A DNA stretch of 64,000 nucleotides from Planctomycetota bacterium (GTDB taxonomy: Bacteria > Planctomycetota > UBA1135 > GCA-002686595): NCBI GenBank assembly GCA_002686265.1, contig NZBA01000050.1:248001-312000 (forward strand), read 5' to 3'. This document shows, in pieces, positions 7,444 to 32,388 of the stretch (its first letter is position 1; each line of letters begins with the position of its first letter). The notes beneath the pieces were generated by a model that saw nothing but the letters and a program-made list of their open reading frames with translations, was not told the origin of the DNA and did not search any database. Position numbers and translations under genes: made by a program.

Positions 7444-8739
7444 TCACTCCCGCTCTCCCAGGACCAGCTCCGTCAGGTGATCGAGGTCCATGAAGTTGGG
7501 GACGTCGGGATCGGAGGAGTTCAGAGTCACACGGGACAAGCGCAGGCTCTGGGCCGCCCGACGCGCAAGGTACAAGCGCGCCCCGGGCATGGCGTAGGCC
7601 TCGTTGGCGAGCTGCGTGCGGGCGGCTTCGGCCCGGTACAGTTCGAGGTTCCCCTCGCTCACCAGCTCCGCGTGGCGCTGGTCGGCCGCCAGGCGCACCT
7701 CTTGGCCGTACTCCTCCGTCCCGCGCACGAGCAGCGCCAGCTCCGCGGCGCTCTCGTTCTTCAGCCGGTCCATCTGAAGGTCCAGCTCATGGGTGACCTC
7801 CTGCAGGGAGCGCTCGATCTCCTGCAAACGCGTGGCGACCTTCTCCTCCTGCTCAGCGACGACGCGCGAGGCGTCGAGCAGCTGCGTCGTCTGGTGCATC
7901 AACTGCGTCTGTTGCAGTTTCTTCTCGTACTCCGTCGCGAAGGCGACGGAGGTGAACAGGATCCCCTGCGCTTCAACGTGCAGGGGGCGCACGGCGCGGT
8001 TCAGCTCGTCCAGGTTCTCTCGCACCCACTCGCCGCGCGCGGCCGTATCCGTCAGGTCCTGGGCACTCAAGCCCGCCATCTGCTGCACGAGCACCTTCTC
8101 GACCGTCGCCCGCACCAGCCGAGGGTAGCTGGCCTTCATCCCCTCCTGCACCACCCGATGCCCCTCGCCCGAGCGGATGGCAAAGGGCACGCACGCGCCC
8201 ACCCGCGCCTGAGTTCCATCGCGGGTCCGCACGTCGAGGGCCGCTGCTTCGGAATCCTCTCCCTCACCAGAGAAAGTCAACAGGTGCGTGCCGCGCCGCA
8301 GGAGGTGCCAGTCGTGCCAACCGGCCAGTCCCAAGTGCAGGCCCGCGGCGAAGTCGCGCTCCTCGATCCCGCCCTCGCCCCAGCGCGCCGCCCGCACGCC
8401 GATGGCCTCGGCCGGGACGCGCACCACCAGGGTCCGCCCCGCCGCCCAGACGACGCCGCCCACCAGGGATCCCACGGCGACCGCGCGTAGGACGAAGGCC
8501 GCTCCTCGCCGCGCCGCCGGCCGGCCCGGCAAGCGCCGGCGCACGCCGGCGATGACGTCCTTCACCTTCGTGACCATGGTCACGATTCCCGGCCGCCCCG
8601 CAAGGGCTGCCCCCCGGGCGTGCGTGGCCTTCCAGGCCTTCACAGACCATCGCCACCCACGCACCACGGTGCCAGCCAACACGTCCCAGCCCCTGCGCGT
8701 CGGCGCGCGCTCGGTCGTTTGCTCTTCGCTGTTCATCAT
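7444..8739 (-). CDS. SPFH/Band 7 domain membrane protein (second of a tandem pair)
   Basis: 431-residue member of the stomatin/prohibitin/flotillin/HflK-C superfamily. A basic N-terminal ~80 residues is followed by one transmembrane helix at about 85-102, the Band 7 domain to about 270, then a charged, Glu-rich coiled coil (about 275-365) and a short C-terminal tail. Such proteins form ring or cage assemblies in membranes and scaffold proteases or lipid domains; the side of the membrane and the partner are unknown. GTG 8742, ATG 8739 and ATG 8736 are consecutive; ATG 8739 is chosen because AGAGG precedes it. The gene starts only eight bases after the stop of the upstream SPFH gene, so the two are co-transcribed, like hflK/hflC. 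Confidence 0.82.
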   Translation of the reverse strand: MMNSEEQTTERAPTRRGWDVLAGTVVRGWRWSVKAWKATHARGAALAGRPGIVTMVTKVKDVIAGVRRRLPGRPAARRGAAFVLRAVAVGSLVGGVVWAAGRTLVVRVPAEAIGVRAARWGEGGIEERDFAAGLHLGLAGWHDWHLLRRGTHLLTFSGEGEDSEAAALDVRTRDGTQARVGACVPFAIRSGEGHRVVQEGMKASYPRLVRATVEKVLVQQMAGLSAQDLTDTAARGEWVRENLDELNRAVRPLHVEAQGILFTSVAFATEYEKKLQQTQLMHQTTQLLDASRVVAEQEEKVATRLQEIERSLQEVTHELDLQMDRLKNESAAELALLVRGTEEYGQEVRLAADQRHAELVSEGNLELYRAEAARTQLANEAYAMPGARLYLARRAAQSLRLSRVTLNSSDPDVPNFMDLDHLTELVLGERE

Positions 8740-8747
8740 CACGCCTC

Positions 8748-9866
8748 TCAGTGCTTGCCTGCCACGGACTGTTCGATCACGCGCACGCCCTCGGGGGCGG
8801 CATCGAGGCTGTAGGGGACGAGTTCGAACTCGACCCCCGCCAGGGTTTCGATCAGAGCCTCGCGCACCGCGGCCTCCCCGCGTTGCTCGAGGGCCAACAT
8901 CTGCAGGGTGAGGCCGTCGGCCTCTGCCTGGTAGCGCACGACGAGACCGTGCGCCTTCTGCTCGAGGGCCAAGCGCTCTAGCTCCCCCGCCTGAAGCCGG
9001 TTGGCGGCATAGAGGTCGGTGGCATGCCGCCGGTTGACCCCCTCGCGCTGCGTGGCGTCGCGGGCCTTGCTGATCTGGTCTTCGAGGACCTTCAGCTCGA
9101 CGACCTTGTCCTTGCGGCGACGGGCGACCCGCTCTCCGCGCTCCGTTTCGAGCTGCACGAGCTTGCGCTTGAGCCGCTCGATCTCCTGCAGCGCCACCTG
9201 CCGCCGCTCGACCGCCTGCTCATAGGCCGGGTCGAACTTCGGGCGGATCGTCGAGAGCTCGAGAACCTCGATCCCGTGCGGCGCAAGCTCGCGGTTGAGG
9301 ATCGCCTTGCAGGCTTCTGAGGCCTCTCGCAAGGTCTCCTGCTTGCTGATCTCCTCCGTTGGGTAGAGACCGAACTGGTCGCGCAGGACCGATCGTGCCC
9401 AGACCTCCACCAAGCCCGCCCTGGCCAGCGGATCGTCGCCCGTGTCGGCCACGGCCTCCCGCGCTCCACCCGAGACGAGTGCGTACTGGATGCTGAATGA
9501 GTCGAGCCCGAAACGCGAGCCGTCGTTGGCCCGCAGGAGCAGGCGCGAGACATGGGACGCATCAGCGCCTCCCTCCCCCTCCATCGTGAGCTGCTCGGGG
9601 CTGCGTGAGAGCAGGCGCACATCGTCGACGTAGGGCACGAACAGGAGGTTCCCAGGCTGCTCGACCACGCGGCTCGCCGAGCCGCTCCCCTTGAAGACGA
9701 CGGCCACCTCTTCGTCTCCGACCGCGGCGACGCCCGCTGCACCAGAGAGTCTCTGCAGCGCACAGAGGCAGCCGAGCAGAGAGAGAACAACGGCGGCGAG
9801 GACGTCCGGTAACGCCGCTCCGCCTCGGGCACCCAATGACGAATGCCCAGGGTTTCGCTGAAACAT
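8748..9866 (-). CDS. SPFH/Band 7 domain membrane protein (first of a tandem pair)
   Basis: 372 residues: a signal-anchor helix at about 21-46, then a Band 7 domain with the typical strand FKGSGSASRVVEQPG and VPYVDDVRLLSRSP, followed from about 225 by a Lys/Arg/Glu-rich coiled coil (ERRQVALQEIERLKRKLVQL) and a C-terminal segment ending GVRVIEQSVAGKH. The layout matches HflK/HflC-type paired scaffolds, but no NfeD protease/OB-fold partner and no hflX or ftsH lies nearby. ATG 9866 has a good SD (GAGG five bases upstream), so this is the first gene of the pair. Its divergence from the downstream paralogue argues for a hetero-oligomer. Confidence 0.82.
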   Translation of the reverse strand: MFQRNPGHSSLGARGGAALPDVLAAVVLSLLGCLCALQRLSGAAGVAAVGDEEVAVVFKGSGSASRVVEQPGNLLFVPYVDDVRLLSRSPEQLTMEGEGGADASHVSRLLLRANDGSRFGLDSFSIQYALVSGGAREAVADTGDDPLARAGLVEVWARSVLRDQFGLYPTEEISKQETLREASEACKAILNRELAPHGIEVLELSTIRPKFDPAYEQAVERRQVALQEIERLKRKLVQLETERGERVARRRKDKVVELKVLEDQISKARDATQREGVNRRHATDLYAANRLQAGELERLALEQKAHGLVVRYQAEADGLTLQMLALEQRGEAAVREALIETLAGVEFELVPYSLDAAPEGVRVIEQSVAGKH

Positions 9867-10043: not shown

Positions 10044-11045
10044 TCAGCGACGGGGGCTCAGCCAGCGCAACGCGCGCGAGACCAAGAGCGCCGCGCGCGA
10101 CACGCGGCGGCCGATGAAGAAACCGTCCTCGCCCTCGCCCTGATAGAGCGGCAAGAGCAAGAGCCCGTCTGCGGGGCTCTGGATCTCCCCATCCGCGTCG
10201 TGGGCGATGACCTCGCCGCGCGCGACCGGGCCGAAGTTGACGAGGCCGGGCGCCATGCGGAAGCGGTCGCGGGGAGTGATCGGGTGACGGTGTCGCACCT
10301 CCACCACGGACGGCAGCCCCTTCGCGGCGCTCCTCAGGCGCTCGCGCAGGGCGGCGTGGTCGCGCAGGTCCTCCCGTTCCAGAGCGCCGCAAGCGACGAG
10401 GGTCAACCAGATGGCGGCGACGTGGTGCTCGAGGGTCAGCGGGTCCTCGTGGGCGCCGCCCTCGAACCCGATAGCGGCGTGCCCACGCTCGCCGAAGTAG
10501 GTCAGGAGCGTGCCCTCTACGCTCTCTTCCAGCCCCAGAACCACGGGAACGGGCAGGCTGTCCGCCAGACACCGGTTAGAGGGAGTGTCGCCCACGATGG
10601 TGAAGGGCGCCCCACCCGAGGAAGTCGAGTGCAAGTCGAGCAGCACCACCGGCCCGCGGGCCCGCTCCAGCGAGCCAGCGATGTGCGCCAGCAGGGTGCG
10701 GCGCGCTCCACCGTCCTCGCCCTCGACCTCGCGCCCTCCAGCGCCCCACATGCGATTGAGGTCGCTCTCGACGAAGCGGCTGCCCCGCCGCAGGGCCGGC
10801 AGATTCCCGGCCAGCCCGATCAGGGTGCAGCGCAAGCGCAACCGACCACCCCGCAGGCTCTCGAACACGCGGCGAATGGCGCGCACCCCCGCGGGCTCGT
10901 TGCCGTGCAACCCCCCGACGATGAGCACGGTCACCTCGCAGGGATCGCCGTCCACGCGTCCCAGTAGGTGGTCGCCCAGCTCGCGCAGGTCAGGCTCCGC
11001 GTCCTGGGGCGGTTCGGCGTCAGCCGGCGGTCGCAACACCGTCAC
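10044..11045 (-). CDS. Succinylglutamate desuccinylase/aspartoacylase-family zinc hydrolase
   Basis: 333-residue M14-type metallohydrolase of the AstE/AspA family, which removes acyl groups from N-acyl amino acids. Zinc and substrate motifs are visible: GGLHGNEP at 44-51 (H47, E50), SDLNRMW at 94-100 and the third zinc ligand in LLDLHST at 135-141 (H139); FEGGAHED probably supplies the catalytic Glu. The start is GTG 11045, which overlaps the last 26 bases of the GCS2-CBS gene, so the two are translationally linked. The coupling suggests a shared pathway: the upstream ligase forms an amide on glutamate and this enzyme hydrolyses an acylated amino acid or related amide. The actual substrate is unknown. 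Confidence 0.85.
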   Translation of the reverse strand: MTVLRPPADAEPPQDAEPDLRELGDHLLGRVDGDPCEVTVLIVGGLHGNEPAGVRAIRRVFESLRGGRLRLRCTLIGLAGNLPALRRGSRFVESDLNRMWGAGGREVEGEDGGARRTLLAHIAGSLERARGPVVLLDLHSTSSGGAPFTIVGDTPSNRCLADSLPVPVVLGLEESVEGTLLTYFGERGHAAIGFEGGAHEDPLTLEHHVAAIWLTLVACGALEREDLRDHAALRERLRSAAKGLPSVVEVRHRHPITPRDRFRMAPGLVNFGPVARGEVIAHDADGEIQSPADGLLLLPLYQGEGEDGFFIGRRVSRAALLVSRALRWLSPRR

Positions 11046-12975
11046 CCGCGCCTCCTCGCTCGCTCTCGCCGCCGAGCCGTTCTTCCAGCAGAGCTGCCGC
11101 CGCGGCCAGGAAGTCGTGTTCGGTGACGATTCCCACGAGGCGGCCCGCGCTCACCACCGGCAGGGCGCTGACACGCTCCTTGCGCATCATGCTGATCGCT
11201 TCCAGCGTCTTCGTCTCGGGCGCCACGGTCAGGGGATCGGGCTGCATCACCTCGCGCACCGCGATGGTCGCGCCACCCTCGCGCATGCCCCGCCCCACCA
11301 GACGCAACACGCGGCGGTGGGAGAGAATCCCCACCAGGACGCCTTCGTCATCCTCCACCGGGACATGGCGCAGGTGCTCCCAATCCATCAAGCTCGCCGC
11401 GAGGTCCACGAGATCCTCGGGGTGCACGGTGAACAGGTCGGTCGTCATCACCTGCCCGACCTTCTCGCAGCCGGCGAGGAGATCGCTGCCGGCATCGAGG
11501 ACGGCCGGCGGCCAACGGTGCACCGGGACGCCCGTGCGCTGGTTCTGGTACATGGCAGCGGCCAAGGCCCGGGAGCGTGCGTCGCCCGTGCCCTGTGCTC
11601 CCATCCGTTCCAGAGAGTCGAGAGCCCACTGCGCGCCGGTCCTTCCAGCCCGAACGCGATCCTCTATGAGCCCCAAGAAACGCTCGCGGTCCCCCGCGTC
11701 GACCCCCTGAGCCGCGAGCCCCCCGTGCGCCAGGGGGAGCAGCTGATCGAGGATCAACTCCTCCGCGGACCAGGAGCGGCCCCCGGTCCAATTCAGCCGC
11801 GCGCTCAGTCCGTAGCGCGCCACGGCCACGAAATTGGCGCGCGCGTGGTCGAATTCCATCACCTCCCGCACGTCACCCAACTCCTCGGCCAGAGCCGAGA
11901 GCAAACCGAAGTAGAAAGAGGCGTTGGCGATCTCGTCGGCAACGGTCGGCCCAGCGGGCAGAGCGCGGTTCTCGATGCGCAGGTGGGCCACGCCGTCCTT
12001 GACCCCGTAGCAGGGCCGGTTCCAGCGGTAGACGGTCCCGTTGTGCAGGCACAGAGCGCGCAGGGCGGGGATCTCCCCGCGGTCGAGGACGGCGGCGGGG
12101 TCCTCGTCGCGCTCGCCTGCGATCAGGACCTTGAAGCGCGCTACGTCCTCGCGGTAGATCTCCATCACCGAGCGTTCGACCCAGCGCTCCCCAAAGCTCA
12201 CGCGCTGGCGTGATCCCCGCGCCTGATGAGCCTTCGAGCGCGCGTCCAGAGATTGCTGGAAGAGCGCCACGCGGCTCTCGTGCCACAGGCGGTGCCCGAG
12301 CAGCACGGGCGAGTTGACCGCCGCCGCGAGCACCGGAGCGGTGATCGCCTGCGCGAGGTTGTAGAGGTTGGCGAACTCGTCCGGACCGACCTGGAAGTGG
12401 ACCTGGAAGCTCGTGTTGCAGGCCTCGAGCATCACGTTGTCGTGGGTCGCGTGGAGTTCGTCGACGCCCTTGATCAGCGTCGTGAACTCGCCGCCGCGCA
12501 GTTCGGACATGACGCGGTTCAGCTCGCGATAGCGCGGCGTTGGCGTCATGTTCTCGAGGATCAGGTGCTCCCGCCGCAGGGTCGGCAGGATGCCGGTCAG
12601 GAGCACGCGTGCGCCGTGGTCCCCGGCAGCCTCCCGCGCGCGTGCGAGACAGTCTTCGATCTCGGCCTCCATGCGCCCGAGGGAGTCGCCTCCTAGCAGG
12701 CGCGGGCGCAGGTTCGCCTCCAGGTTGAACAGGCCCAGCTCGGCGGTGAATGAGCTGCCGGACAGGGCCGCGAGGACCTCGGCCCCGCAGGCTGAGGGTT
12801 CCATGTTCTCCTGAACCAGGAACATCTCCTGCTCGGCTCCGATGCGCCGGACGCCGGACTCGAAGAGCCCCTCCTCGAGCATGCGCTCGAGGGCGTGCAC
12901 GTCCGCGAGCACGGCGCGCATGAAGACGCGCAGCTCGCCTCGATCACGGGCGGGGTTCTCGTCGTGGTGTCCCAT
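11020..12975 (-). CDS. GCS2-type glutamate-cysteine ligase-like protein fused to two CBS domains
   Basis: 651 residues in two parts. Residues ~20-480 form a glutamine-synthetase-fold carboxylate-amine ligase of the GCS2 family, with IGAEQEMFLV near 45-54, FNLEANLRP near 83-91, a central FQVHFQVG strand and RIENRALPAGPT near 340. Residues ~505-565 (VMTTDLFTVHPEDLV) and ~572-625 (VMQPDPLTVAPETK) are a tandem CBS pair (Bateman module) that normally binds adenine nucleotides. ATG 12975 has an SD-like GGAGGT eight bases upstream. I infer that the ligase activity is gated by adenylate charge. Whether the acceptor is cysteine or another amine cannot be told; GshB is not nearby, and the coupled downstream gene is an AspA-like deacylase. 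Confidence 0.85.
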   Translation of the reverse strand: MGHHDENPARDRGELRVFMRAVLADVHALERMLEEGLFESGVRRIGAEQEMFLVQENMEPSACGAEVLAALSGSSFTAELGLFNLEANLRPRLLGGDSLGRMEAEIEDCLARAREAAGDHGARVLLTGILPTLRREHLILENMTPTPRYRELNRVMSELRGGEFTTLIKGVDELHATHDNVMLEACNTSFQVHFQVGPDEFANLYNLAQAITAPVLAAAVNSPVLLGHRLWHESRVALFQQSLDARSKAHQARGSRQRVSFGERWVERSVMEIYREDVARFKVLIAGERDEDPAAVLDRGEIPALRALCLHNGTVYRWNRPCYGVKDGVAHLRIENRALPAGPTVADEIANASFYFGLLSALAEELGDVREVMEFDHARANFVAVARYGLSARLNWTGGRSWSAEELILDQLLPLAHGGLAAQGVDAGDRERFLGLIEDRVRAGRTGAQWALDSLERMGAQGTGDARSRALAAAMYQNQRTGVPVHRWPPAVLDAGSDLLAGCEKVGQVMTTDLFTVHPEDLVDLAASLMDWEHLRHVPVEDDEGVLVGILSHRRVLRLVGRGMREGGATIAVREVMQPDPLTVAPETKTLEAISMMRKERVSALPVVSAGRLVGIVTEHDFLAAAAALLEERLGGESERGGAGDGVATAG

Positions 12976-14393: not shown

Positions 14394-15791
14394 TCAGAGC
14401 AAGCGCGCGGCGCGCGGGTAGCAGGCGACGAGCGCGGCGCGCGTCGCGTCGGTCAGGACCGCCTCGAGGGCCGCGGGCCCGCCCCCGTCGGCGCGGCCCG
14501 TCTCCAGGGCCCCAGTGAACTCCTCCGAGCGCTCGGCGAGGGCTCGCGCCACGTGCTCGCTCCAGAAGCCGGGCCCCTGGCCATCGCGCCAGTTCCCTTG
14601 CCCGCGGCCGAAGTGAGCTACGGCCAGATACCGCAGGAGCAGCTCCTGCGCCAGGCGCTCGAGTAGGCCGGGGGTCCACTCCACGCACGGGTGCTCCTTC
14701 CCGCTCACCCACTCCACGGCGCGCCCCGCCCCGTGACCGGCCAGCCAGCCCCCGGCCGCCCCGAGCAACATTCCCCCACCGAGGCTGAAGCCACCCGACG
14801 CGAGGTCGGCCGCGAGGCCACCGATGAACCCCGAGATGACGGCACCGCGCAGGCCGAGCTTCCGTGGTGAGAGCCCCCCGCCGGTGGCCGCGAAATCCTT
14901 GAGTGCGGTCCGCAGCTCGGCCCGGCCCCGCCCCTCGATCCCGTGCAGCTCGATCAGCTCGTCCAAAGCGCGGCCCAGGCCGTTCTCCAGTCGGGCAGCG
15001 AGTCGCTCCATGCCGCGCCGGCGCCCCGCCCTCAGGGCCCCTTCCTCGAGCTCCTCGCGATCATCCCCGGCCCGCCAGAGTTCCTTCGCGATCAAGCTCA
15101 TGGCCGTCCGCCAGCGTACGCGGCGCTCGTCCATCCAGGCCTCGAGCAAGGGATCGCAGGCGGAACGCCGCTCGAGGGGAAGGGCCTCGCGGACAGCCTC
15201 GAGCAGGGCGCCCTCCTGCACCCAGCAACGCGTGAAGGCGTCGAGGCCGAGCACGCCGCGCACGATGTCGAACCCCTCGCAGCGGGTGCGCCAAGCGTCC
15301 TCCTCGGCCCGCCGCTCCCCCGCCTCGCGCGGCGGGCCGGTCTGGTTCAAGAGCAGTAGGACCGGCCGGCCGATCCAGGCCAGCAGCTCCAGCTCGGCGT
15401 GGACGTAGCCGGCGTCCTCGGGATTCTCGGCACCGTTCACCAGGTACAACACGCAGTCCGCCTCATCGCGCACGTTGCGCGCCGCCTGTTGGCCACACCA
15501 CAAGGGCCTGTCGGCGAGACGATCCCAGGTTTGGGCGAAGAAGGCCTTCAAGGGCTCCTCACTCGCACGCAGGCGCGCCAGGAGCCGGGCCGAGTCTCCG
15601 AAGCCGGGCGTGTCCCAGAGGACGAGCTCTCCGCCATCGGCGTCGGTCACGAGGACGTGGCGGGTGCTCTCTTCGGTCACGTGCGCCCGGTCGCGCACCT
15701 CCCCGACGTCCTTCCCGAGCAGGGTGCGTGCCAGAGTCGTCTTCCCCACGTTGGTGTGGGAGACGAGGCTGAGAGTCAGGCGCCCGCTCAT
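14394..15791 (-). CDS. GTPase with DUF3482-type C-terminal domain
   Basis: 465-residue P-loop GTPase of the TrmE/Era-like class. Walker A is SHTNVGKTT (11-19), G3 is DTPGFGDS (60-67), and LLLLNQTGP occupies the G4 position with NQTG instead of NKxD. A glycine-rich hydrophobic stretch around 310-360 could insert in or lie on the membrane. The domain arrangement matches DUF3482 proteins, which are usually paired with a DUF2868 membrane protein, and such a gene lies directly upstream. ATG 15791 is chosen over 15821 because it gives an ATGA overlap with the upstream stop, implying translational coupling. The biochemical role of the pair is not established. Confidence 0.85.
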   Translation of the reverse strand: MSGRLTLSLVSHTNVGKTTLARTLLGKDVGEVRDRAHVTEESTRHVLVTDADGGELVLWDTPGFGDSARLLARLRASEEPLKAFFAQTWDRLADRPLWCGQQAARNVRDEADCVLYLVNGAENPEDAGYVHAELELLAWIGRPVLLLLNQTGPPREAGERRAEEDAWRTRCEGFDIVRGVLGLDAFTRCWVQEGALLEAVREALPLERRSACDPLLEAWMDERRVRWRTAMSLIAKELWRAGDDREELEEGALRAGRRRGMERLAARLENGLGRALDELIELHGIEGRGRAELRTALKDFAATGGGLSPRKLGLRGAVISGFIGGLAADLASGGFSLGGGMLLGAAGGWLAGHGAGRAVEWVSGKEHPCVEWTPGLLERLAQELLLRYLAVAHFGRGQGNWRDGQGPGFWSEHVARALAERSEEFTGALETGRADGGGPAALEAVLTDATRAALVACYPRAARLL

Positions 15792-17371
15792 CCGCTCGCC
15801 TCCGCCACCGGTGCGGGCCACATGGCCGCCCGCGCGGCGGCGAAGACGTCACTCCCGCCGCGCTCGGACAGCTCACAGTACAGGGCCTCGATCCCACGTT
15901 CGCCCAACACCTCCTCCCAAACCCGGCGGCGCTCGGCGAGCCGTTCGGCTCCACCCCCACCGCAGCGCAGGCGCAGGACGCTCTCGTCCACCACGACGAG
16001 CAGCCGCTCCCCTGGGGCCGCAGCGGCCAGGGCCTCGGCGAGGTGAACGCCGTGCACCTCTCGCTCGGGGCATTGCCCGGCGTTGAAGACGATCACCCGG
16101 CTACCCGAGCGCCTGCCTCCCGTGTCGCCACCGTAGGGGACGCGCTCCAACTCACCCAGCTCGGCTCGGCCACCGAAGACCTCGGCGAGCATCGCGCGCA
16201 GCCCCGCCTCGGCCTCGTCCGAGAGCCCGTAGGAGTAGGACTCGAGGTCCACGCGCACGCCACGGCCGCGGTCAGTGGCCAGAGCGCGTGCCAGGGAGGG
16301 GAAGGCGTCGCGCTCGAGGCACAGACTCGCCCCCAGGAGCCGCGCCCGGTGCGCGGACCAAGCAGCCAGGCCCAAGCGCGGGACGATCGCCAGGGCGAGG
16401 GTGGTAGCGGCGAAGAGGTGGATCCACTCGGCGGCGGGAACTCCCGCGTCCGGGCCGCCCATGGCGTCGAGGAGCGCGGGCTCGGGCACCCCGCGGCCCA
16501 GCAACCACGCCCCGGGAGCGAGCAGGACCGAGAGCAGAACGTGCACCTGCTCGGCATCGAGGAAGGTGCTCTCCCAGCCGGCGCGGTACTCGAAGACCAG
16601 GCCGCGCAGGTAGATGCCGCCCAAGAGTCCGAGGGCCAAGCCCGCGGCGCCGAGGTCCAGAAGGCAGCGCATGCGCGCCCCCACCAGCGGCGCGGCGACG
16701 CGCCCCCAGCTCTCGAGGAACCGTCCATGGATCGCGGCCGAGAGGCCTCCGGCCCGGTGCCGCCAAGTGGCCCAGGGTCGCTGGAGAGCGAGCCACACAC
16801 CGACGCGCTCCAGGCCCGCGGGCCGCGGGAGTCCGATGCGGCAGGCGACGGAGACCGCGACGCGCAGGGGATAGGCGACGAGATTCCAGGCCAGAAGGGC
16901 CAGGAGCGAGAAGGACAGCAGGTTCAGGCGCTGGGACATCTCGAGCCGATCGGCGCCCAGGCCCAACAGGGCGGTCACGCCGAAAACCAGCCAGGCCGGC
17001 GGTGCGGGAGCGGCCGTGAGGGAGAGCAGGCGAGAGGAACCGGGAAGGTCGCGTGCGAGTCCTTCACGCAAGAGGCGCGCGCGCTCGACCAGAAAGCGCT
17101 CCTCGACCTCGGACCGGGCCGCGGGAGTCGCGGCCGCCGGTGCCCCGTTGCCAGGCGGCTCCCAACTCGGCTGCGCGGCGCCCAGCACCGCGCGCGCCCG
17201 GCGACTGGCCCGCCGGCGCTCCTCGTGCGCCAGCAGCGTTCCCTCGTGGTCGAGCTCCTCGAAAGCCTCCACGAGCAGCACGTCGCGCAGACTCCCCGGG
17301 TCCACGCCTAGAACCTCTTCCGCTCGCTCGACCCGATCGTCATCCCCGAGAGCCTCGCCCCGCCGGCCCAC
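15788..17371 (-). CDS. DUF2868-type polytopic membrane protein
   Basis: 527 residues. The N-terminal ~115 residues are charged and helical, followed by about five hydrophobic segments (about 125-145, 152-172, 235-255, 282-300 and 325-345). The remainder is a soluble C-terminal domain with RVIVFNAGQCPE and a putative nucleotide-fold strand LLVVVDESVL. This matches the DUF2868 family, the habitual partner of DUF3482 GTPases. The only available start is GTG 17371; no SD is evident. The gene ends in the ATGA that starts the GTPase gene. The pair is presumed to form a membrane-recruited GTPase complex; no cargo is known. Confidence 0.8.
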   Translation of the reverse strand: MGRRGEALGDDDRVERAEEVLGVDPGSLRDVLLVEAFEELDHEGTLLAHEERRRASRRARAVLGAAQPSWEPPGNGAPAAATPAARSEVEERFLVERARLLREGLARDLPGSSRLLSLTAAPAPPAWLVFGVTALLGLGADRLEMSQRLNLLSFSLLALLAWNLVAYPLRVAVSVACRIGLPRPAGLERVGVWLALQRPWATWRHRAGGLSAAIHGRFLESWGRVAAPLVGARMRCLLDLGAAGLALGLLGGIYLRGLVFEYRAGWESTFLDAEQVHVLLSVLLAPGAWLLGRGVPEPALLDAMGGPDAGVPAAEWIHLFAATTLALAIVPRLGLAAWSAHRARLLGASLCLERDAFPSLARALATDRGRGVRVDLESYSYGLSDEAEAGLRAMLAEVFGGRAELGELERVPYGGDTGGRRSGSRVIVFNAGQCPEREVHGVHLAEALAAAAPGERLLVVVDESVLRLRCGGGGAERLAERRRVWEEVLGERGIEALYCELSERGGSDVFAAARAAMWPAPVAEASG

Positions 17372-24929: not shown

Positions 24930-26306
24930 TCAATCGCCGGCGGTGCGCTCCCGGCCCCACTCCACCGAAAGGGCCGGATGCTCGGCGTGCAGAGCGGCGA
25001 GCTCCACCGACGGTGAGACGCCTCCCGCGACGAAGCGCTCGCGGAACTCCCTCGCGCAGCGCAAGTCGCGCGCACGGTGGAATCCCGCGGGAAGCCGCTC
25101 GGCTCCGGCCAGGGCCAGCTCCCACAGGTCGATCGCCACGGCTCTCAGGCGCGGATCGGCCAGTCCCTCGGACGCGGCGGCGGCCCAGCAGGCGGGTAGG
25201 GCGGCGCGCAGTTCGCCGAGCAGCTCGCCAGCCCCGTCGAGGCTCTCGGCGTCGTAGAGCAACCCGGTCCAGAACACCACCAGGGCGCCGCGCCAGCGGC
25301 GCGGTACCGCGTCCGCCGCACGCAGCTCCAAGAAGCCGCGCAGACGCACCTCGGGGAACAGGGTCGTCAGGTGGTAGTCGACGTCCGAAAGGCGGGGATA
25401 GCCGTGGCGCGCGTGCCCCTGCTCGATCCAGTCGCGCAAGCGAAAGCCCGGCTGACCGGGCACGGCCGCCTCATCCGCCTCGTAACCCAGGAACAACAGC
25501 GGGTCGGCCTCGAGGGCGAACTCGGCGTATTGGCGCCCCGGGTCGTCCTCGGTGCCCTCGAGGAACAGGGAGGGGAACCCGGTGCGCGTGGGGTCGAGGC
25601 CCTGCCACGCCTGGGCGCGCCGCGAAGCGGCCCCATCCAGCGGGCTCGAGGCGAAGCAAGCCGCGGCGAGAGGGCTGGCCAGGTTCGCCACGCACCAACG
25701 TGCAGCGGCGACCTCCGGGGGACCGAGATCCAGGTTGACCTGCAGGCTCGCCGTGTGCCGCATCATCACCGCTCCCTGCGGTCCACGGTTCGCGAGGTAG
25801 GCGGCCATGGCGCGGTAGCGCGGGGCGCGCAGCTGCTGGGGCACCCCTTCGAGGCCGCTCCACAAATCGATGCCGCTGGCGCAGAGAGCGAAACCGGCGG
25901 GGTCGAAGGCCTCCAGGAGGGCGTCGGCCGTCTGTTCCACGTCGGCCATCGCCGCGGCGGCGGTGGCGTGGATCGCCGTCGAATGCTCCACCTGCGCCCC
26001 GGGTTCGAAGGTGATGCGTCCGCCATCGCCGAGGGTGTAGACCGGCGGCGGCCCGCCGTAGGCGCGGCGGAAGCGGCGCCGGCGGCCGGCGACGACGCTC
26101 ATGCAATCCAGGACGCCGCCGTTGGCCTCGAGGGGCACGCGCCCGCTCGGCGCGCCGTCGGCGCCGAGCTGAAAGAGCAGGAACTCCGGCTCCAGGCCCA
26201 CCTGCCCACAGCAGGGCGCGGTTTCGTCGGGCCGGTAGACCGTGGACGCGATGCGCTCGCGCGCCTGTTCAACGCTGACGGCCTCTCTGCGATCAGGGGT
26301 GGGCAT
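24930..26306 (-). CDS. GCS2-family glutamate-cysteine ligase-like protein (EgtA/plant-GCL type)
   Basis: 458-residue carboxylate-amine ligase-fold protein. Characteristic strands are GLEPEFLLF near 36-44, GGRITFEPGAQVEHST near 94-109 and the central RHTASLQVNLDLG near 190-202, which place it with plant-type GCL and EgtA enzymes that make gamma-glutamylcysteine. It has no CBS domains and is the second GCS2 protein in the window. ATG 26306 is chosen over 26429 because the upstream residues look non-coding and GGAGG lies just before it, though only two bases away. No egtB/egtD or gshB neighbours are present, so the pathway (glutathione, ergothioneine or another gamma-glutamyl amide) is uncertain. 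Confidence 0.82.
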   Translation of the reverse strand: MPTPDRREAVSVEQARERIASTVYRPDETAPCCGQVGLEPEFLLFQLGADGAPSGRVPLEANGGVLDCMSVVAGRRRRFRRAYGGPPPVYTLGDGGRITFEPGAQVEHSTAIHATAAAAMADVEQTADALLEAFDPAGFALCASGIDLWSGLEGVPQQLRAPRYRAMAAYLANRGPQGAVMMRHTASLQVNLDLGPPEVAAARWCVANLASPLAAACFASSPLDGAASRRAQAWQGLDPTRTGFPSLFLEGTEDDPGRQYAEFALEADPLLFLGYEADEAAVPGQPGFRLRDWIEQGHARHGYPRLSDVDYHLTTLFPEVRLRGFLELRAADAVPRRWRGALVVFWTGLLYDAESLDGAGELLGELRAALPACWAAAASEGLADPRLRAVAIDLWELALAGAERLPAGFHRARDLRCAREFRERFVAGGVSPSVELAALHAEHPALSVEWGRERTAGD

Positions 26307-26440
26307 GGCCTCCGGTGGACCGCGCCGCCGGCCCGGCGCGCTCGACCCGCAGCAGGATAGCGCCCCACAGCGGGGCGCGACAGACTCGCGCACCCCCGCC
26401 TCCCACCGCCGCGGGCGAATTGGCATCATGCTCCGCAGCC

Positions 26441-30947: not shown

Positions 30948-31580
30948 TCACCTGGTCGGAGTGAGGATCGGGGACGCGGGATCCGGTCCGGCCAGCAGGA
31001 TCTGTTCCGCGAGCGCGCCCCCCACGACGGACCAGGACCGCAGGTGGAGCTCGCCTCCCGCCCCCGGCGCGGCGATCAGGTGCGACCAGCCTTCGGCGGC
31101 GCCGGCTCGATCGGCCCGCGAGGGCCAGCCCGGACCGCCGGGATGGCTGTGCCAGACGCCGACGACGGCCAATCCGGCGGCGTGTGCCCAGCGTTCCCAG
31201 CGCAGGTGGGCGACGGGGTGAAGGCGGAAGCCGACGCCCGAGGAGGGCGGGTTCACGTTCTCCAGGCACGCGGCCCGCGCGACCGAGGTCGTCGCCGCTT
31301 GCCGCAGTCCCAGGAGCAGGCCACAGGCCTCCCGCTCGCCGGCCCTGCGGGCGCCGGCGAGGATCCGTCCCCGCTCGCGAGGCGGCAGCACCAGAGTTCG
31401 GAGCGCGCCGAAGCTCGCGTCAGCGTTCGCTCGTTCATTCCCATGCCCGTTCGCGGCGGTGTTCTCCAGGGCGTTCGCGTAGGCGCTCGCGTAGGCGCTC
31501 GCGCCTGGGCCGGCGCTCTTGGGAGCCTCAGCGGCGATGTTCGGCTGGGCGTCGAGAGCCTCACCCATCGTCATCCCCAT
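30948..31580 (-). CDS. JAMM/MPN-domain metalloprotease
   Basis: About 210 residues. The C-terminal ~150 form a prokaryotic JAB1/MPN domain with a complete JAMM zinc site: E84 in EREACGLLLG, and H144, H146, S154 and D157 in the HxH-x7-S-x2-D pattern HSHPGGPGWPSRAD. Such enzymes cleave isopeptides or C-terminal extensions of ubiquitin-like or sulfur-carrier proteins, as in Mec+ and CysO systems. The first ~55 residues are Ala/Asn-rich with an SAYASAYA repeat and look disordered. Three start codons (31580, 31574, 31568) are in frame and all overlap the end of the MORN-repeat gene by at least several bases. No E1, E2 or ubiquitin-like gene is present, so the substrate is unknown. Confidence 0.82.
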   Translation of the reverse strand: MGMTMGEALDAQPNIAAEAPKSAGPGASAYASAYANALENTAANGHGNERANADASFGALRTLVLPPRERGRILAGARRAGEREACGLLLGLRQAATTSVARAACLENVNPPSSGVGFRLHPVAHLRWERWAHAAGLAVVGVWHSHPGGPGWPSRADRAGAAEGWSHLIAAPGAGGELHLRSWSVVGGALAEQILLAGPDPASPILTPTR

Positions 31581-32388
31581 CTCCGAGGGAGGCTCGGCCG
31601 TCACTGTAGATCCCACTCTCCTGGCGGTTGCGCGAGCCGTCGGGGTGCCAGAACCGCCACGGTCCCTCCTCGACGCCGCGTCGCAGCTCGCCCTCGGCCC
31701 GCAGGTTGCCGTTGCGCCACCAGTGGACCCACCACCCTTCCAGCTTCCCGTCCACCAGGCTGCCCTCGGCCCGCAGGGCGCCGTTGGAATGCCACAGGCG
31801 CCACACGCCCACGCGCAGGCCCGCGCGGTACTCACCGGTCGAAGCGCGCTCTCCGACGGGGTGCCAGGTGGTCCATTCCCCCTCGGCCAGGCCGGCGCGG
31901 TAGTCGCCTTCGCTCAGCGGTCGCCCGCCGCGGCTCCAGCGCCGCCAGCGCCCCTCGCGCCGCCCGCCGGCGAAGAGGCCCTCGCGCCCGGCCTGCCCGT
32001 TGCGGTAGCTCTGGCGCCAGGTCCCCTCCCGCAGACCGGCGACCAGCCGCCCTTCGAGGGAGAGCTCGCCGTTGGCGTGCCAGAAGCGCCACAGTCCCTC
32101 GCAGCGGCCCGCGACGAAGATCCCTTCTCCGCGCAGGGCGCCGTCGGGGTGCCAGAAGGTCCAGGCGCCTTCACGCCGGCCGGCGCGGTGGCGGCCTTCG
32201 GAGCGACGCCCGCCGTTGTGCACGTGCCAGCGCAGGCCCCAACCTTCGCGCTGACCGGCGTCGTATTCGTCTTGGGCGTAACGCCGCCCGTGCTGGTCCC
32301 AGAAGGTCCAGCTCCCCGAGCGCAGCCCGTCGACCAGGGGCCCCTGGCTGGCCCGGCCTCCGGTGCGGTAGCGACGCGTGTCCCGCAT
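31561..32388 (-). CDS. MORN-variant (YwqK-like) repeat protein
   Basis: About 275 residues made almost wholly of ten or so tandem ~23-residue repeats with consensus G-x-W-x-x-W/F-H-x-x-G-x-L-x-x-E-G-x-Y/F-x-A-G-x-R-x-G (e.g. GAWTFWHPDGALRGEG). This is the MORN variant found in YwqK-type proteins, which form extended beta-hairpin stacks and probably bind proteins or lipids. ATG 32388 is chosen; the frame remains open to GTG 32484, whose extra residues include a short PKAA duplication. No signal peptide is visible. The gene overlaps the JAMM protease start, so the repeat protein may be the protease's scaffold or substrate adaptor, which is inference. Confidence 0.8.
   Translation of the reverse strand: MRDTRRYRTGGRASQGPLVDGLRSGSWTFWDQHGRRYAQDEYDAGQREGWGLRWHVHNGGRRSEGRHRAGRREGAWTFWHPDGALRGEGIFVAGRCEGLWRFWHANGELSLEGRLVAGLREGTWRQSYRNGQAGREGLFAGGRREGRWRRWSRGGRPLSEGDYRAGLAEGEWTTWHPVGERASTGEYRAGLRVGVWRLWHSNGALRAEGSLVDGKLEGWWVHWWRNGNLRAEGELRRGVEEGPWRFWHPDGSRNRQESGIYSDGRASLGDGDDDG

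Follow-up and report, generated by a model that had tools for sequence, protein, structure and literature searches.

A GCS2-fold ligase with a CBS pair and its conserved partner zinc hydrolase in Planctomycetota and other bacteria: a candidate gamma-glutamyl amide module

The gene pair

We analysed a 64,000-nucleotide stretch of contig NZBA01000050.1 from a Planctomycetota bacterium, called the window below, in which a ligase gene and a hydrolase gene overlap on the minus strand. The features under study are, in window coordinates:

11020..12975, minus strand: GCS2-fold ligase with C-terminal CBS pair, 651 aa, ATG start; Pfam GCS2 and CBS
11506..12975, minus strand: predicted GCS2 catalytic core of the ligase, aa 1-490, from residue invariance and profile alignment
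11098..11466, minus strand: CBS pair of the ligase, aa 504-626; Pfam, two CBS domains, 96.9 bits
10044..11045, minus strand: AstE/AspA-family zinc hydrolase, 333 aa, GTG start; Pfam PF24827 (AstE_AspA_cat)
11020..11045, minus strand: 26 bp overlap of the ligase 3' end with the hydrolase 5' end, from the ORF listing
24930-26429, minus strand: second GCS2 protein, EgtA-like (206 bits; equivalog cut-off 370.8)

A preliminary description of this DNA had reported a GCS2-CBS ligase overlapping by 26 bases an AstE/AspA hydrolase with intact HGNE, DLNR and DLHS motifs. The ORFs and Pfam matches confirm this arrangement, provided that GTG 11045 is the hydrolase start; with an alternative start at GTG 11039, 6 bp further on, the two ORFs would share 20 bp. 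All three motifs are present, and E195 and Y301, the catalytic Glu and Tyr, are likewise in place. A congener (G001) has the identical 26 bp overlap, and among 57 orthologue pairs 27 overlap, 15 of these by 4 bp, while 18 have a gap of 0-100 bp. GC contents by codon position are 0.75/0.46/0.87 and 0.77/0.51/0.88 for the two ORFs, and orthologues in other phyla reach down to ~41% identity for the ligase and ~30% for the hydrolase. Both ORFs are real genes because of these cross-phylum orthologues and the high GC at codon position 3; the same orthology and codon-position GC rule out a chance or antisense ORF artefact.

Several other arrangements were seen in the window. Two adjoining Band 7/SPFH proteins are encoded downstream of the pair (7444-8742 and 8748-9866, minus strand), a GTPase with DUF3482 overlaps a DUF2868 protein in what appears to be another pair (14394-15821 and 15788-17371, minus strand), and a Prok-JAB domain protein (30951-31835, minus strand) lies just upstream of an HSP90-like protein.

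The ligase

Pfam GCS2 (PF04107) matches aa 46-273 at 33.8 bits, above the gathering cut-off of 21, and matches 46 of 54 ligase homologues at E<=0.001. Ten residues (E48, E50, E79, E86, H193, R235, W318, R320, E335 and R337) are invariant across 78 ligase sequences; we take them, from general knowledge of GCS enzymes, to bind Mg2+, ATP and glutamate. The AlphaFold model has a pLDDT of 91.8, and its best Foldseek matches are yeast glutamate-cysteine ligase (3ig5), plant glutamate-cysteine ligase (2gwc) and YbdK (1r8g/1tt4), the E. coli putative glutamate-cysteine ligase 2, followed by CBS pairs. By sequence the core is far more isolated: a search of the PDB gave no match even at E=10, and single-sequence hhalign found no signal against YbdK or the second GCS2 protein, alignment succeeding only with family profiles. 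Against a profile of YbdK, its relatives and EgtA-like GCS2 proteins the core aligned at E=1e-16 (probability 98.8). When the core is aligned to a profile built from YbdK and the proteins nearest to it, E48/E50, E79/E86, H193, R235, W318/R320 and E335/R337 fall on or near the YbdK motif positions. The predicted fold and the positions of the catalytic Glu, His and Arg residues thus place the ligase in the GCS2 class.

Among the closest known proteins is YbdK, which has the GCS2 fold in common with the ligase (TM-score 0.77-0.79 by target length) and aligns with it at the E-x-E, second Glu pair, His, Arg, W..R and E-x-R motifs; YbdK is however a 372 aa protein without a CBS pair, whereas the core of the ligase is longer and, compared with YbdK by itself, shows no direct match in sequence. 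The plant and yeast glutamate-cysteine ligases, although its top structural matches, are only ~14-18% identical and lack CBS domains, and the ligase for its part has no gshB partner. EgtA belongs to the same superfamily; an EgtA/ergothioneine identity for the ligase was rejected, since the match to TIGR03444 is weak (20.6 bits against the equivalog cut-off of 370.8).

In the CBS pair, CBS2 carries the nucleotide motif G-h-x-T/S-x-x-D at aa 615-621 (G615...D621) in most of the 78 sequences, with D at position 621 in 67 and N in 5; the Asp of the motif is absent from CBS1. Foldseek matches the pair to AMP/ADP-bound AcuB and CBSX2. The CBS2 motif, with its putative ribose-contacting T/S-x-x-D, is compatible with adenylate binding.

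The hydrolase

The hydrolase scores 66.4 bits with AstE_AspA_cat (PF24827; cut-off 25), and its AlphaFold model (pLDDT 91.8) matches AstE (1yw6, E=3e-15), DoeB/EutE (6twm), aspartoacylase and CphZ in Foldseek. H47, E50 and H139 (zinc), R90, N97, R98, E195 and Y301 are conserved in every hydrolase sequence covering these positions. By motif we take R90, N97/R98 and Y301 to be the counterparts of R63, N70/R71 and Y288 of aspartoacylase (ASPA), with residue roles assumed from general knowledge. Profile, the predicted H..E..H zinc site and the catalytic Glu assign the protein to the AstE/AspA catalytic-domain class.

With AstE, DoeB/EutE and aspartoacylase the hydrolase has in common the fold, zinc ligands, catalytic Glu and N/R carboxylate grip; it differs in falling below the equivalog cut-offs (AstE TIGR03242, 52.9 vs 305.65; aspartoacylase NF002601, 45.3 vs 180) and at the counterpart of ASPA Arg168, the residue that contacts the aspartate side chain. 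That counterpart is apparently not conserved (R187 in 18 of 48 hydrolases), so the substrate is probably not N-acetylaspartate-like. CphZ, a cyanophycin dipeptide hydrolase of the same fold family at 13-14% identity, is a known case of hydrolysis at an amide formed by the side-chain carboxyl of an amino acid (PMC10206079), although its substrates are beta-Asp-Arg/Lys in cyanophycin breakdown and it has no known GCS2-CBS ligase partner. Most hydrolase orthologues have an extra C-terminal stretch of ~55-65 aa (LPGV...AR...HL-GYR...RR), which is missing in the source genus and some other lineages.

Distribution and linkage

We compared 61 close genomes: the source genome plus others from its genus, family and order. 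A full-length ligase orthologue is present in 43, of which 40 carry the hydrolase directly downstream, 2 of the 40 being cut by contig ends; the pair is conserved in relatives, as the preliminary reading had needed. In a phylum-wide sample of 294 genomes we found the ligase in 66 and the hydrolase in 49: both in 46, ligase only in 20 and hydrolase only in 3 (Fisher p=4e-34, uncorrected for phylogeny). The hydrolase is thus present in 46/66 ligase carriers vs 3/228 non-carriers. None of the three hydrolase-only genomes is a clear exception: in two the hydrolase is at a contig end where the upstream ligase would fall, and the third has a distant homologue of 60 bits. From these counts the hydrolase accompanies the ligase, while the reverse does not always hold.

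The association is not only positional, since in 11 of the 46 co-carriers the genes are both present and non-adjacent; some of these may reflect contig breaks, and others are on long contigs (G142, G157 and G293). Two sequences titled as chromosomes, CP070717 (Acidobacteriota) and CP070670 (Gemmatimonadota), likewise have the hydrolase orthologue far from the ligase. Ligase and hydrolase distances are correlated over 52 pairs (r=0.80 vs a permutation maximum of 0.27), to which shared ancestry contributes.

Ligase orthologues span 8 phyla or more. In named genomes that we scanned, ligases carrying the CBS pair turned up in Planctomycetota, Myxococcota, Acidobacteriota, Gemmatimonadota, Balneolota/Rhodothermota/Bacteroidota, Calditrichota, Krumholzibacteriota, KSB1 and Gammaproteobacteria. 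The order ligase then hydrolase is found in Planctomycetota, Myxococcota, Acidobacteriota, Gemmatimonadota, Calditrichota, Krumholzibacteriota and Balneolota; in Balneolota two tandem, diverged GCS2-CBS ligases precede the hydrolase (L104:8001-13010 and L112:8001-13015). One metagenome-assembled genome (MAG) labelled Gammaproteobacteria (L075) has the pair; its ligase groups with those of Gemmatimonadota, so this genome may be misbinned. On the ligase tree the paired status requires ~14 changes, suggesting that linkage was gained or lost repeatedly, some of the unpaired labels being contig ends. No hydrolase orthologue was found in ligase-bearing genomes of Wenzhouxiangella, Marinicella, an Alcanivoracaceae MAG, Archangium or Salinivenus. 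Adjacency and co-inheritance nevertheless support the two genes as a conserved functional module.

We found no universal third neighbor in the pair neighborhoods that would define a pathway; neighbors cluster only by lineage. Examples, named by eye from sequence, are a sigma-factor-like gene in some relatives and, beside the ligase in Gammaproteobacteria, acyl-CoA-ligase-like and SLC13/TrkA-C-like genes. In some Gammaproteobacteria (L065, L066, L068 and L070) a ~614-aa permease, by eye SLC13-like with TrkA-C domains, is directly upstream of the ligase, and an adjacent hydrolase is absent.

Glutathione genes and the second GCS2 protein

Canonical gshB was not found in the source genome, where only a weak 25-bit ATP-grasp stretch was detected, nor in 39 of 40 relatives, the lone strong match being in G013 (177 bits). 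Ordinary glutathione synthesis, which the preliminary description had argued against, is therefore unlikely in this group, and for the source genome the ordinary glutathione pathway was rejected on this ground.

The second GCS2 protein had been placed at 24930-26306 and offered as a sign of two coexisting gamma-glutamyl routes. It is present, with an ORF running over 24930-26429, a later start having been chosen before; judged by profile it is EgtA-like and of another subfamily than the CBS ligase. Homologues of it lie ~0.4 kb (G021) and ~3 kb (G016) from egtD. The source genome (91.9% completeness) yielded no egtD, and its egtB-like matches are all partial, none amounting to a full egtB; the suggestion of two routes has to be qualified accordingly.

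Proposed function and alternatives

The pair would be a two-gene module, probably translationally coupled, by which a small gamma-glutamyl amide is built and unmade. With ATP and Mg2+, the GCS2 core would convert the side-chain carboxylate of glutamate into an acyl phosphate and then join it to an amine; the probable acceptor is the amino group of an amino acid or of a compound related to one. The CBS pair may bind an adenylate at CBS2 and so switch the ligase with the energy state of the cell. The zinc hydrolase would cleave the amide made by the ligase or one derived from it, N97/R98 holding the freed amino acid by its alpha-carboxylate; the net effect would be an energy-gated gamma-glutamyl pool, built and recycled. 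We infer glutamate as donor, the acceptor, the substrate shared by the two enzymes and the adenylate gating, and give close to an even chance to an adenylate-gated ligase whose partner hydrolyses the same or a derived amide. The preliminary proposal of such a cycle under energy control, distinct from glutathione, gains from the conserved module, the fold matches, the catalytic residue sets, the CBS2 motif and the missing canonical gshB. It loses by the ligase-only lineages (the sampled Gammaproteobacteria, Archangium and Salinivenus), by which a strict cycle is not universal; also weighing against it are the 20 of 66 phylum ligase carriers without hydrolase and the distance by sequence of the ligase core from characterised GCS enzymes.

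The alternative that we would consider next, unlikely yet deserving attention, is a one-way supply with no cycle, in which the hydrolase strips the acyl group from an N-acylated amino acid or diamine, releasing the amine that the ligase takes as acceptor. The closest fold relatives of the hydrolase, AstE, DoeB/EutE and aspartoacylase, are indeed N-acyl amino acid deacylases, and ligases without the hydrolase could take a freely available amine. However, genomes with the hydrolase practically always have the ligase too, and some separated hydrolase copies adjoin another type of amide ligase; being tied to ligases in this way suggests that it acts on ligase products, with which supply is still compatible. 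It is rather improbable that the ligase represents a diverged glutamate-cysteine ligase whose product, gamma-Glu-Cys or a compound derived from it, is a low-molecular-weight thiol recycled by the hydrolase: true glutamate-cysteine ligases (3ig5 and 2gwc) are among its fold relatives and the missing canonical gshB leaves room for a thiol made of gamma-Glu-Cys only, but no sequence similarity to either was detectable in the PDB search, the source genome already has a separate EgtA-like GCS2 protein, and no conserved gene that looks thiol-related was seen in the pair neighborhoods.

Ionic strength is another signal to which CBS pairs can respond, OpuA being an example, and the names of several carriers point to saline or marine origin (Salinivenus, Rhodohalobacter, Wenzhouxiangella and Marinicella), so the product might be an osmolyte-like gamma-glutamyl dipeptide made under such control; with the canonical ribose-contacting T/S-x-x-D/N motif in CBS2 speaking against it, we regard this compatible-solute version as quite improbable. 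Relatives of the GS/GCS fold such as PafA act on proteins, and the ligase might likewise add glutamate to a protein or polymer from which the hydrolase removes it, as in other GS-fold ligase/hydrolase pairs. Ligase-only lineages would fit such target-specific use, but no conserved small target gene adjoins the pair and most AspA-type hydrolases of known function have small-molecule substrates (by fold matches and general knowledge), which makes modification of a macromolecule very improbable.

The built and recycled gamma-glutamyl amide would, in its widest form, be a new and probably non-thiol metabolite of an undescribed, ancient, energy-gated module, with the CBS ligase in at least 8 phyla and a dedicated zinc amidase in most; we hold this tentatively, as a possibility well short of even. 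Both proteins come from known enzyme superfamilies, and the architecture and partner are widespread over phyla and strongly conserved. The literature searched, which covered few subscription papers, held no description of the ligase-hydrolase pair, and this conserved architecture and pairing of known folds appears undescribed. If the proposal is true, many bacteria without glutathione hold a new gamma-glutamyl metabolite under nucleotide control. Cultured carriers include Nannocystis exedens DSM 71 and Rhodohalobacter sulfatireducens.

Separated hydrolase copies

In G157 and G160 a separated hydrolase copy is directly upstream of an ATP-grasp protein; G160 has a normal GCS2-CBS pair besides. 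These copies belong to a single clade, which comprises seven separated hydrolases and spans two families. The sole NCBIfam match of the ATP-grasp protein is BesA (NF042917), a propargylglycine-glutamate ligase; the score of 156-158 bits, with the cut-off at 750, does not imply BesA function. It would be an amide ligase, like the GCS2-CBS ligase, though of unrelated fold, and its position beside separated hydrolase copies is an independent hint that the hydrolase cleaves what a ligase makes. As a general third component it was rejected, occurring in only 13 of 294 genomes, 9 of them with the ligase (p=3e-4), and adjoining in two; its link to the module is a lead only. At several loci (L149:1242-3988, L159:3521-6182, L160 and L162) a separated hydrolase precedes a BesA-like ATP-grasp gene, a PPK2 gene or both, the PPK2 being polyphosphate:AMP phosphotransferase-like.
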